Positions 22,647-25,665 of a DNA stretch of 63,711 nt are shown piece after piece. A program made the position numbers and the translations under genes. The stretch is from Pseudomonadota bacterium (lineage in GTDB: Bacteria; Pseudomonadota; Gammaproteobacteria; Burkholderiales; JABEVD01), in NCBI GenBank assembly GCA_021806605.1, contig JAJZQY010000007.1, forward strand, positions 1-63,711, in the 5' to 3' direction. The notes under the pieces were generated by a model that had not been told where the DNA came from, did not search any database, and saw only the letters and a list, made by a program, of their open reading frames with translations. Numbering within the stretch: position 1 is the first letter of the stretch; each line of letters opens with the position of its first letter.

Positions 22647-24839
22647 ATGTCACTCAAATCCCAAAACTCGATTCAAGGCGTACTGCCTGCAGCTCCTTAC
22701 CGCATCCTCCTGGTCGACGACGATCCTGTCGTCCTGAAGGCGCTGCTGCATACTTTCCGCCGAGACAACTACCAGATCGTATCCGCCGTCAATGGCGAGG
22801 ATGCTATGGGGCAACTGAAGCGCTCGCGCTTTAACGTGCTGATTGCGGATTACCGGATGCCGGCGATGGACGGCCTGGAGTTGCTCTCGAAGGCGAGAAC
22901 GATCCAGCCCGACATGGTCAGGATTCTCCTGACCGTTCAGGGCGACATCGCTCCCGTGATGGGCGCGATCGGCGATGGGCTCGCCTTCAAGTTCGCGCTC
23001 AAGCCGTGGAAGGAAGACGAATTGCGCACCTTGGCGAATCTCGCCATCGAGCAATATGAAAAGGCCAAGGCGGAGCTTCCCGGGCAGAAATCGGCTGAGA
23101 TCGTAGCGCTTTCCAAGCTGATGGTGACGAACAGGAGCCAGCTTGCCGTGATGCTCAACAAGCATGGCTTGCTTTCCATGGGGCAGGTGCAGGAACTCAA
23201 TCGGCTCCAGATCGCGACAAAAGAGCCGCTCATCAAGGTGCTTCTGGAACAGGACTGGGTGACGGAAAAGGAAATCAGGGATCTGCTGCGCAGAGAACTC
23301 CAGATGGAGGAAGTCGCGCTTTCCGATTACCAGGTCGATTCGGCGGTGGCCTCCCTCGTGCCGATGAGCTTTTGCGAACGGCAGCTCGTCGTCCCGCTCA
23401 AGCTGGAAGGCAAGCGCTTCACGCTTGCGGTTGCAGATCCGCTCGATTTCGGTCTCATCGACGATCTGCGCTTCGTATCCGGACTCAACATCCATACCGT
23501 GGTGGCCGATATTGCCGCCATCCAGGCCAAGATGATCGAGATTTATCAGCCGGACAAGGTGATGGATTTCAGGGACCTGGAAACGCTGCTTGCCAGGGTT
23601 GATCCCTACGAGGGGATAGAGATCGTCATCGACGATGCCGATGAGCAGTCACTCGAAGAACTCCTGATCGGGGACGAGCCCCCTGCCATCAGGATCGTCA
23701 ATGCCATCATACTGGAGGCGATCCGGCTGGGGGCGAGCGATGTGCATGTCCAGCCCAGGTCGAAAAGCATCGTCGTGCGCTACCGCATAGACGGCGTTCT
23801 GATGGACAAGATCAATATCCCGTTGCAGCTGCTGCAATCGATCGTGTCCCGCATCAAGATCATGTCCGAGCTCGACATCAGCGAAAGGCGCAGGCCCCAG
23901 GACGGCAGGATCACCGCCAGAACGCCGATGCGCGTCGTTGATCTCAGGATTTCGACCCTTCCCACCGTCAACGGCGAGAAGGTGGTGATGCGCATCCTGG
24001 ACCGAAATTCAAGGATACACAGCCTGGAAGGATTGCGGTTTTCCCAGCCGGATCTTGCCAAGGTGCTCAATTTAGTCGACAAGCCACAGGGCATCATCCT
24101 TGCGACCGGCCCCACGGGGAGCGGCAAGACGACGACCCTGTACGCCCTCTTGCAGCACAATGCTTCCCCCGCCAAGAATTATGTCACGATCGAGGATCCT
24201 GTCGAATACTACATGGACATGGCAGGGCAGGTGTTGATCCGGGAAAAGATAGGACTGACCTTTCCGGTCGTGCTGCGCTCGATATTGAGGCAGGATCCCG
24301 ATGTCGTATTGCTCGGCGAGATAAGAGACTTCGAGACGGCGGAAGTCGCCTTCCATGCCGCCCTCACCGGGCATGTGGTCTTTTCCACGCTCCACACCAA
24401 TTCTGCTGTGGCGACGCTCTCCAGGCTTTTCGATCTGGGATTGAAGCCATTTGTCGTGGCTGCCGCACTGGAAGGCATCATCGCGCAGCGGCTGGTGAGG
24501 ATGATCTGCCCCGAGTGCAGGGAAGCCGATCGCATGGCTTCAGTTTTTTTGCCGAGGCTGGGCCCGGTCTTTCTCGGAAATGAAGTCAACGCCTGCAAGG
24601 GAAAGGGATGTGCGCACTGCAACGGAACGGGTTACAAGGGCAGGCTTGGCCTCTACGAGGTGCTCGCCCCCGATGAGGAAATGCGCCACCTCATCGCATC
24701 GGGTGCGAGCATTCTCGATATCTCGCGGGTTGCGCAGAAGATAGGCACTTCTTCGCTGCTGGAAGATGCGCTCGTCAAGGTCAATCAGGGGCTGACCAGC
24801 ATCGAGGAAGTGCTTCGCGTTCTGGGGCCGCAGATTTAG
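22647..24839 (+). CDS. Receiver-domain fused GspE/PilB-type ATPase
   Basis: The 730-residue product begins with a response-regulator receiver domain (about 18-140; VDDDP, phosphoacceptor Asp68 in LIADYRMPAMDG, Lys in ALKPW). A GspE N-terminal helical domain follows (about 150-330) with ML-N-KHGLLSMGQVQEL and LIKVLLEQ, a partly degenerate form of the c-di-GMP-binding MshEN motif. The ATPase has Walker A GPTGSGKTTT near 488-497, TIEDPVEYY, Walker B VVLLGEIRD and His box LTGHVVFSTLHTNS, then CPEC and a Cys cluster KGKGCAHC for zinc. Phosphorylation could control the motor directly. The stop TAG at 24837-24839 uses the first G of the inverted-repeat element. No kinase, pilC or secretin gene is adjacent. 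Confidence 0.88.
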   Translation: MSLKSQNSIQGVLPAAPYRILLVDDDPVVLKALLHTFRRDNYQIVSAVNGEDAMGQLKRSRFNVLIADYRMPAMDGLELLSKARTIQPDMVRILLTVQGDIAPVMGAIGDGLAFKFALKPWKEDELRTLANLAIEQYEKAKAELPGQKSAEIVALSKLMVTNRSQLAVMLNKHGLLSMGQVQELNRLQIATKEPLIKVLLEQDWVTEKEIRDLLRRELQMEEVALSDYQVDSAVASLVPMSFCERQLVVPLKLEGKRFTLAVADPLDFGLIDDLRFVSGLNIHTVVADIAAIQAKMIEIYQPDKVMDFRDLETLLARVDPYEGIEIVIDDADEQSLEELLIGDEPPAIRIVNAIILEAIRLGASDVHVQPRSKSIVVRYRIDGVLMDKINIPLQLLQSIVSRIKIMSELDISERRRPQDGRITARTPMRVVDLRISTLPTVNGEKVVMRILDRNSRIHSLEGLRFSQPDLAKVLNLVDKPQGIILATGPTGSGKTTTLYALLQHNASPAKNYVTIEDPVEYYMDMAGQVLIREKIGLTFPVVLRSILRQDPDVVLLGEIRDFETAEVAFHAALTGHVVFSTLHTNSAVATLSRLFDLGLKPFVVAAALEGIIAQRLVRMICPECREADRMASVFLPRLGPVFLGNEVNACKGKGCAHCNGTGYKGRLGLYEVLAPDEEMRHLIASGASILDISRVAQKIGTSSLLEDALVKVNQGLTSIEEVLRVLGPQI

Positions 24840-25143
24840 GAACCACTGATTTATTCCGCGCGGAGTGCGTTGCTGGGAAAACGGAGCGAAGCGTAGTTTC
24901 GAGATACGGCCAAATCGAGATGATCGCCAGACGCGCGACGCAGATCGTAGCTGGGTCTACGACATCAAGGAGCACGACAAAGCGAGCGCCCGATTTGCGC
25001 GCAACCCAATTGGGACGGGGCTTTGCGGGCGAGCTTCATTGTTGCCCGGCTCGCGAATGGAATAACCATTCGACATCGCCGCGCGCCTCGAATCTCATCC
25101 CGCAAAGCCGTGTCGCACCCGTGAGGAATAAATCAGTGGTTCC
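24839..25143. mobile_element. MITE-like non-autonomous element with 19-bp perfect terminal inverted repeats
   Basis: GGAACCACTGATTTATTCC at 24839-24857 is repeated as its exact reverse complement at 25125-25143. Similarity of the ends continues inward with mismatches for about ten more bases. The 305 bp between convergent genes hold no credible reading frame. An internal hairpin CGAATGG-AATAA-CCATTCG lies at 25054-25072. The flanks are TTA on the left and CTA on the right, a possible imperfect 3-bp target duplication. Size, ends and lack of coding suggest a MITE mobilised by a transposase elsewhere; the ends resemble those of IS5-type elements, which is only an impression. This is the only stretch over 300 bp without a gene. 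Confidence 0.75.
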
Positions 25144-25665
25144 CTAGGGTCTTCGGTATTTGCCGACGAGTTCTGCTTTTGCCAGGACATGCCCCGCCAT
25201 CGCCTTCTCGATGTCGCGCATGCCCGCCATGCCGAGATTCGGCAGAAGGACATCGAGCGCATAGAGCCTGTGGAAATAGCGGTGGTTGCCCACCGGAGGG
25301 CATGGCCCGCCGTATGTCGTGCGCCTGAAGTCCGTCCAGCCCGAGAGCGTCCCTTGCGGAAGCTTCCGGATTCCTTCGCCGAGCGAAACGGTTTCCGGAG
25401 GAAGGTTGTAGAGCAGCCAATGGGTCCAGTCCATCCTGGGATGTTCGGGATCCGGGGCATCCGGGTCGTCAATGAAAAGAACCAGGCTTTTTGCCCCCTT
25501 GGGAATGCCGCTGAAGGCGAGCGGCGGCGAAATGTTCAGGCCGTCGCAGGTGTATTTTGCAGGAATCTGCCCGCCATCCTGGAAGGCAGAAGAAGTCAGA
25601 ATCATGTTTCCTCCCGCCATGGCTGAAGGCATCGAAAAAAGCAATAGGATTGCGGCAAGTCTCAT
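25144..25665 (-). CDS. Periplasmic PEBP-family (YbhB/YbcL-like) protein
   Basis: The 173-residue product has a signal peptide (MRLAAILLLFSMPSAMAGG) and a phosphatidylethanolamine-binding-protein fold: SAFQDGGQIPAKYTCDG, DDPDAP, WTHWLLYNLP and GPCPPVGNHRYFHRLYALD contain the conserved ligand-site residues. The bacterial family has no firm function; some members affect kinases or bind small molecules. The stop codon abuts the inverted-repeat element. It is divergent from dnaE across 47 nt. TATTCT lies 6 nt before its ATG with no ribosome-binding site, so its message may be leaderless. Confidence 0.9.
   Translation of the reverse strand: MRLAAILLLFSMPSAMAGGNMILTSSAFQDGGQIPAKYTCDGLNISPPLAFSGIPKGAKSLVLFIDDPDAPDPEHPRMDWTHWLLYNLPPETVSLGEGIRKLPQGTLSGWTDFRRTTYGGPCPPVGNHRYFHRLYALDVLLPNLGMAGMRDIEKAMAGHVLAKAELVGKYRRP

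Follow-up and report, generated by a model that had tools for sequence, protein, structure and literature searches.

Between two convergent genes in the stretch of DNA analysed here (the window, 63,711 nt) lies a 305-bp sequence with inverted ends, and the stop codons of both genes sit exactly at its borders, of which the preliminary description had given the left one only. What is this sequence, how did it come to lie there, and do the two genes owe their ends to it? The features of the locus are as follows.

22647–24839, plus strand: gene in which a response-regulator receiver domain is fused with MshEN and a type II/IV secretion ATPase (GspE/PilB-like), flanking the element on the left.
24836–24839, no strand: left target-site copy TTAG, which holds the TAG stop of the plus-strand gene; the empty site in locus L173 is TTAG.
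24839–25143, no strand: whole 305-bp element (MITE), with the same borders in the copies on contigs C56 and C27 of the same genome (G000).
24839–24863, plus strand: left terminal inverted repeat (TIR), its first 19 bp perfect (GGAACCACTGATTTATTCC); the same 19-mer stands before an IS5-type transposase in locus L138.
24882–24911, plus strand: 30-bp module, missing from most 274-bp copies in relatives.
25119–25143, minus strand: right TIR, from the inverted-repeat comparison of the two ends.
25144–25147, no strand: right target-site copy CTAG, which holds the stop of the minus-strand gene.
25144–25665, minus strand: gene of a YbhB/PEBP family protein, flanking the element on the right.

The perfect 19-bp inverted repeats at 24839–25143 and the location between two convergent genes, both reported in the preliminary description, are present: the ATPase gene and the YbhB/PEBP gene converge on the element, whose first bases are GGAACC and whose two ends match perfectly over the first 19 bp and are 92% complementary over 25 nt. 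By our own estimate, the chance expectation for a perfect 19-bp pair within 305 bp is about 2e-7. Reading frames in the element are disrupted by single-base indels among copies, leaving no transposase gene or credible coding sequence, and no Rfam family matched the 305 bp at gathering score.

The genome of the window is an 82% complete MAG (105 contigs, 1.95 Mb) with three full 305-bp copies including that of the window, the other two (C56 and C27) at 96% identity, as well as contig-end pieces (C79, C87, and C11) and an internally deleted copy of 82 bp (C97). Two further elements in this genome have the same core and different ends, namely C82 (GGAAGCCCTGAACAAGTC) and C101 (GGGCCTGTTAACACTTGCCCG). 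Many copies were found in five other species of the genus, so that the search for the 305 bp and the 19-mer proposed earlier revealed a multi-copy sequence with related ends, rather than a single copy without them. The exact 19-mer also occurs in MAG contigs such as DS3.bin61, SKS3.bin83, SKS4.bin81, and DBS1-3.bin90, and in a Burkholderiales bacterium MAG, while a plasmid search with the window element gave no match. The 60 unique copies are 44 to 369 bp long, mostly 273–275 and 305–307 bp, and in most of them the flanks are YTAR (CTAG, TTAG, CTAA, or TTAA), often identical on both sides as in the 4-bp target duplications CTAG/CTAG and TTAG/TTAG.

Two observations on individual copies may be added. 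On a viral contig (IMGVR_UViG_640069307_000005; L136, 8642–8660) the exact 19-mer follows CTAG, the element being ended by the contig end. In some copies (L037, L070, L071, L073, L074, L098, L110, L123, L134, and L135) a segment like window 24867–24919 (query 29–81) lies inverted at another position inside the element, which suggests internal rearrangement between repeated motifs.

The perfect ends had been taken as a sign of recent movement. This does not hold up well, since the full copies of the genome are about 4% apart inside while their ends are nearly perfect, and since another insertion is common to two species (L002 in the genome of the window, L066 in species G006). Perfect ends are therefore no clock here.

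The stop codons can be judged from relatives that carry the same gene pair without the element, a comparison suggested earlier that defines both the target and the original stop. Here, base 24839 is the last of the plus-strand gene's TAG stop, and 25144–25146 hold the TAG of the minus-strand gene. The element-free site of G006 reads ...GGGCCGCAA GTT TAG CG TCTTCGG and that of G001 ...CCGCAG GTT TAA GC; in the former, the TAG of the plus strand and the TAA of the minus strand overlap within a TTAG (YTAR) site. The GspE-like protein ends VLGPQV-stop in both relatives and VLGPQI-stop in the window. Since the protein end is the same in the empty sites, it was the target, not the element, that supplied both stops, and the insertion duplicated them. 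The earlier proposals that the element supplies the stop codon of the gene and may have altered the end of the protein are thus not borne out, the left junction having kept the target's own TTAG. The G at 24839 is both the last base of this TTAG and the first base of the repeat, indicating that one G is shared or was lost, and the right copy CTAG differs from the TTAG of G006 by one T to C change. In a further species (G004; L175, contig C57, at about 1480–1500), CTAG-GTTCC-CTAA stands between the same two genes at the place of the element and, judged from its sequence, looks like what an excision or deletion would leave of an element end.

Nor does the element family favour stop codons as such. 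Of 59 family insertions, 24 have one or both flanking stop codons at the junction (8 with both), compared with 38 of 100 non-genic YTAR sites in the window and the 8-kb loci (6 with both), which gives no clear excess; the coincidence is explained by the YTAR target together with the avoidance of genes. Selection of the element as a module that provides stop codons or a terminator to the two convergent genes, as its exact placement between both stops might suggest, is very improbable, as the identical protein ends at the empty sites largely refute it, a terminator signature is lacking and the stop coincidence fits the null for YTAR sites. As a separate observation, YTAR is strongly avoided in the whole window (45 sites versus 288 in dinucleotide shuffles), and by a second-order Markov estimate no tetramers are more depleted than CTAA, TTAG, and CTAG; avoidance of CTAG is present in other genomes too.

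Which transposase could have moved the element? A species of the same genus (G007, L138) has a perfect copy of the 19-mer directly after a TTAG, followed at a distance of 75 bp by an ORF for an IS5-family transposase with PF05598 and PF01609 (NF033581, IS5_4) that ends early at 186 aa. Among nine genomes of the genus, the transposase gene behind this TIR is present as fragments only, while full-length relatives of this IS in the order have the same style of ends and YTAR-type borders. The element is multi-copy, it has TIRs and YTAR target duplications, empty sites exist, and an identical TIR precedes a transposase fragment in the genus, all of which agrees with the earlier designation as MITE-like. 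We therefore consider 24839–25143 to be, almost certainly, an IS5-group MITE inserted at a YTAR target in overlapping stops.

Experimental precedent comes from MITEPsy1 of Pseudomonas syringae pv. phaseolicola, a non-coding element with an IS5-type TIR (GGAAGGTCTGAAAAAGCC, ISPsy2/IS5-like) and a 4-bp CTAG/YTAA target duplication, whose transposition was observed and which, in the part of the report available, is presumed to be moved in trans by a resident IS5-family element (PMC3189936). By this description it resembles the window element in its IS5-type TIR, its 4-bp target duplication and its lack of coding sequence, but it is 100 nt long against 305 nt here, and a two-armed core is not mentioned in that part of the report (PMC3189936). 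This precedent and inference from the sequences lend good support to the reading that an IS5-family transposase recognising GGAACCACTGATTTATTCC would move the 305-bp MITE in trans and join it into a 4-bp palindromic YTAR target, duplicating the target. In the present case the target was TTAG with the overlapping stops of two convergent genes (TAG on plus, TAA on minus), and the duplication left each gene with its own copy of the stop, so that neither protein changed.

Some findings count against this explanation. A PF01609 profile search of the window's own genome, an 82%-complete MAG, found no transposase, and with fragments only in the genus, present-day mobility is unproven. The two target copies in the window are unequal (TTAG and CTAG), with the one G shared or lost. 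Moreover, the PF01609 elements of most other genomes checked lack the TIR of the MITEs in those genomes: in 16 other genomes, the two matched in G216 and G182 only. In G216, the TIR of an IS (IS5_4; GGAACCCCTGAACAAGT) is that of a core-bearing MITE, and in G182 an IS of about 860 bp, present in more than 10 copies and encoding a DUF4096-type transposase in two frames (NF033580, IS5_3), carries the same TIR as the core-bearing MITEs of that genome. Core-bearing MITEs and IS5-family elements thus match in their TIRs in three genomes (G007, G216, and G182) and two groups. In each case the IS (NF033581 in G007 and G216, NF033580 in G182) has a TIR identical to that of the MITEs and YTAR-type borders, but differs from them in encoding a transposase and lacking the core. 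The genome of G182 is complete, its core-bearing MITEs are identical to one another, and the same-TIR IS is present many times (L209–L212, L255–L273); this MITE/IS pair is probably currently active and the best experimental system.

The preliminary description had called the interior non-coding with a 7-bp hairpin. This is correct and yet understated, as the interior is a conserved, covarying structure of two arms, with these parts.

24912–25119, plus strand: conserved structured core, on which model R1 is based.
24915–24993, plus strand: arm A of the core; in helices 3–5, both sides changed in 13 of 24 pairs.
25005–25014, plus strand: central hairpin CCC-AATT-GGG, with the C and G of its stem nearly invariant across the wide set.
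25015–25113, plus strand: arm B of the core, whose conserved motifs roughly mirror those of arm A as reverse complements.
25054–25072, plus strand: 7-bp hairpin CGAATGG-AATAA-CCATTCG at the tip of arm B, part of a much larger fold.

The fold consists of an outer TIR stem, arm A, the small CCC/GGG hairpin and arm B, and on either strand folding is much stronger than in shuffled sequence (z −6.4 and −7.5). Predicted pairs lie mainly within the arms (671 within A and 840 within B) and only 118 between them, so that one global hairpin of arm A with arm B can be set aside. The structure of the core is kept with compensatory base-pair changes: when 27 full copies from several species were aligned, 45 of 84 pairs changed on both sides and 96.2% of cells pair, with a covariation score of 0.270 compared to 0.116 in shuffled controls (0 of 500) and at most 0.063 with partners slid. 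In the wide alignment the score was 0.666, against 0.180 shuffled and at most 0.184 slid. Divergent cores have in common CAAGGCGC, CGCAG, CAAG, GCAACGC and their reverse complements.

The same core of about 208 bp (about 205 nt) is found inside elements with other TIRs. With models built without TIRs from 30 cores (R1) and from 36 divergent cores (R2), and with six to eight candidates scored per genome and a rough calibration, so that copy counts are lower bounds and E-values approximate, R1 recovered the core from 116 of the 399 order genomes and 52 of the 274 class genomes (E ≤ 1e-5), and R2 from 119 of the 398 phylum genomes, some of them belonging to families beyond the class (E ≤ 1e-6). 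In 166 kb and 139 kb of locus sequence, no model match fell outside the elements; matches occur on both strands, since arms A and B are nearly reverse complements of each other. Inverted-repeat scores were at least 15 (median 23.5) around all 59 matches checked and at most 12.5 at 177 control positions, so that all checked matches lie inside long TIRs, although the models hold none. Elements of the wide set are mostly 262–287 bp long, and hosts named from plasmids are Azotobacter chroococcum, Halomonas, Pseudomonas aeruginosa, and Pseudoalteromonas. The window element itself combines a core-model match with bounding TIRs. The only Rfam match at gathering score among 12 wider loci was a glycine riboswitch, which is unrelated.

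We consider it very probable that the core-bearing elements are one superfamily, a homologous set extending through Pseudomonadota and bearing, in its various lineages, TIRs of different IS5-family groups; at least two such groups match core-bearing elements. A tree of 76 cores shows 14 changes of TIR class, compared to 38.5 in shuffles and a minimum of 6. Free swapping of TIRs between cores is thereby ruled out, TIR class mostly tracking the core tree, and ends and core have mostly diversified jointly with occasional class changes. The superfamily appears to be previously unrecognised: a literature search, with most subscription journals outside its reach, returned no description of such a shared core, and looking for the letters of the conserved motifs brought up unrelated papers only.

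Among known repeats, Correia/NEMIS and ERIC are likewise short, non-coding, TIR-bounded and strongly folding intergenic repeats, and Correia also exists with and without an internal module, as described in the available parts of the sources (PMC2229807, PMC10969869). As described there, however, they have TA termini and about 100–160 bp, in contrast to YTAR in the window family, and those descriptions mention no tie to IS5-family ends (PMC2229807, PMC10969869). Membership by TA termini was rejected for the window element, with its YTAR target and its GGAACC start. Stem-loop repeat families are also genome-specific with a shared predicted fold, some being double hairpins on both strands, but going by the part of their description available they are treated per genome, with no phylum-wide core, covariation analysis or alternative IS ends (PMC2267715).

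Why, then, does the core persist? Possibly the fold itself has a function, whether in RNA processing or as a DNA hairpin that serves transposition or is bound by a host protein. The quasi-palindromic two-armed structure of about 205 nt could, on a similarly tentative footing, be an unrecognised functional nucleic-acid class, kept across Pseudomonadota as the shared core of small mobile elements whose ends have changed to suit different IS5-family transposases. We prefer the reading that selection would keep the fold as it makes the element tolerable or mobile in either orientation.

The fold may act at the DNA level, by hairpin or cruciform extrusion or through a protein reading bulged motifs, and so help transposition or survival, which we regard as conceivable and somewhat doubtful. 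The quasi-palindromic layout lets both strands fold alike, an orientation bias is absent, and CAAGGCGC and GCAACGC, in inverted order, are common to lineages with unrelated TIRs. Internally deleted copies of 44–102 bp with intact TIRs exist, several with target duplications, and speak against it; each deleted copy, however, has its own junction, and they may never have moved in deleted form.

It is unlikely that the core is instead a structured RNA acting in cis on the transcripts of neighbouring genes, kept by selection for a role such as protecting 3'-ends or guiding RNase III/RNase E processing, in the manner of Correia/NEMIS and ERIC. The covariation is strong and the fold very stable on both strands, and in the genus, elements contact gene 3'-ends in 31 of 63 cases and 5'-ends in 2 of 45; RNA-level effects are known for Correia and ERIC from the available parts of their descriptions (PMC2229807, PMC10969869). 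The 3'-end contact is, however, accounted for by the YTAR target, G-U does not clearly outnumber A-C at paired positions when a single dominant pair is omitted, and no intrinsic terminator was found in the element. The orientation of the core to tandem genes is unbiased (16 same versus 26 opposite), which speaks against a strictly oriented RNA.

Equally doubtful is that the compensatory changes arise without function, by template switching or conversion between the arms, with the core an old passenger. Long inverted repeats are prone to such events, and the TIRs are nearly perfect while the interiors diverge. Against this, sequence motifs are conserved in addition to pairing, and unpaired motifs persist across the phylum, although conversion should erase bulges.

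MITEs are usually viewed as decayed insertion sequences with an irrelevant interior. In these elements it is the interior that is conserved, whereas the ends change. If selection, as in the reading we prefer, explains the core, repeats hitherto separate and known from single genomes would belong to a single superfamily whose shared function could be tested. The locus also points to a rule: an element inserting at YTAR can hit the overlapping stops of convergent genes and leave both proteins intact.
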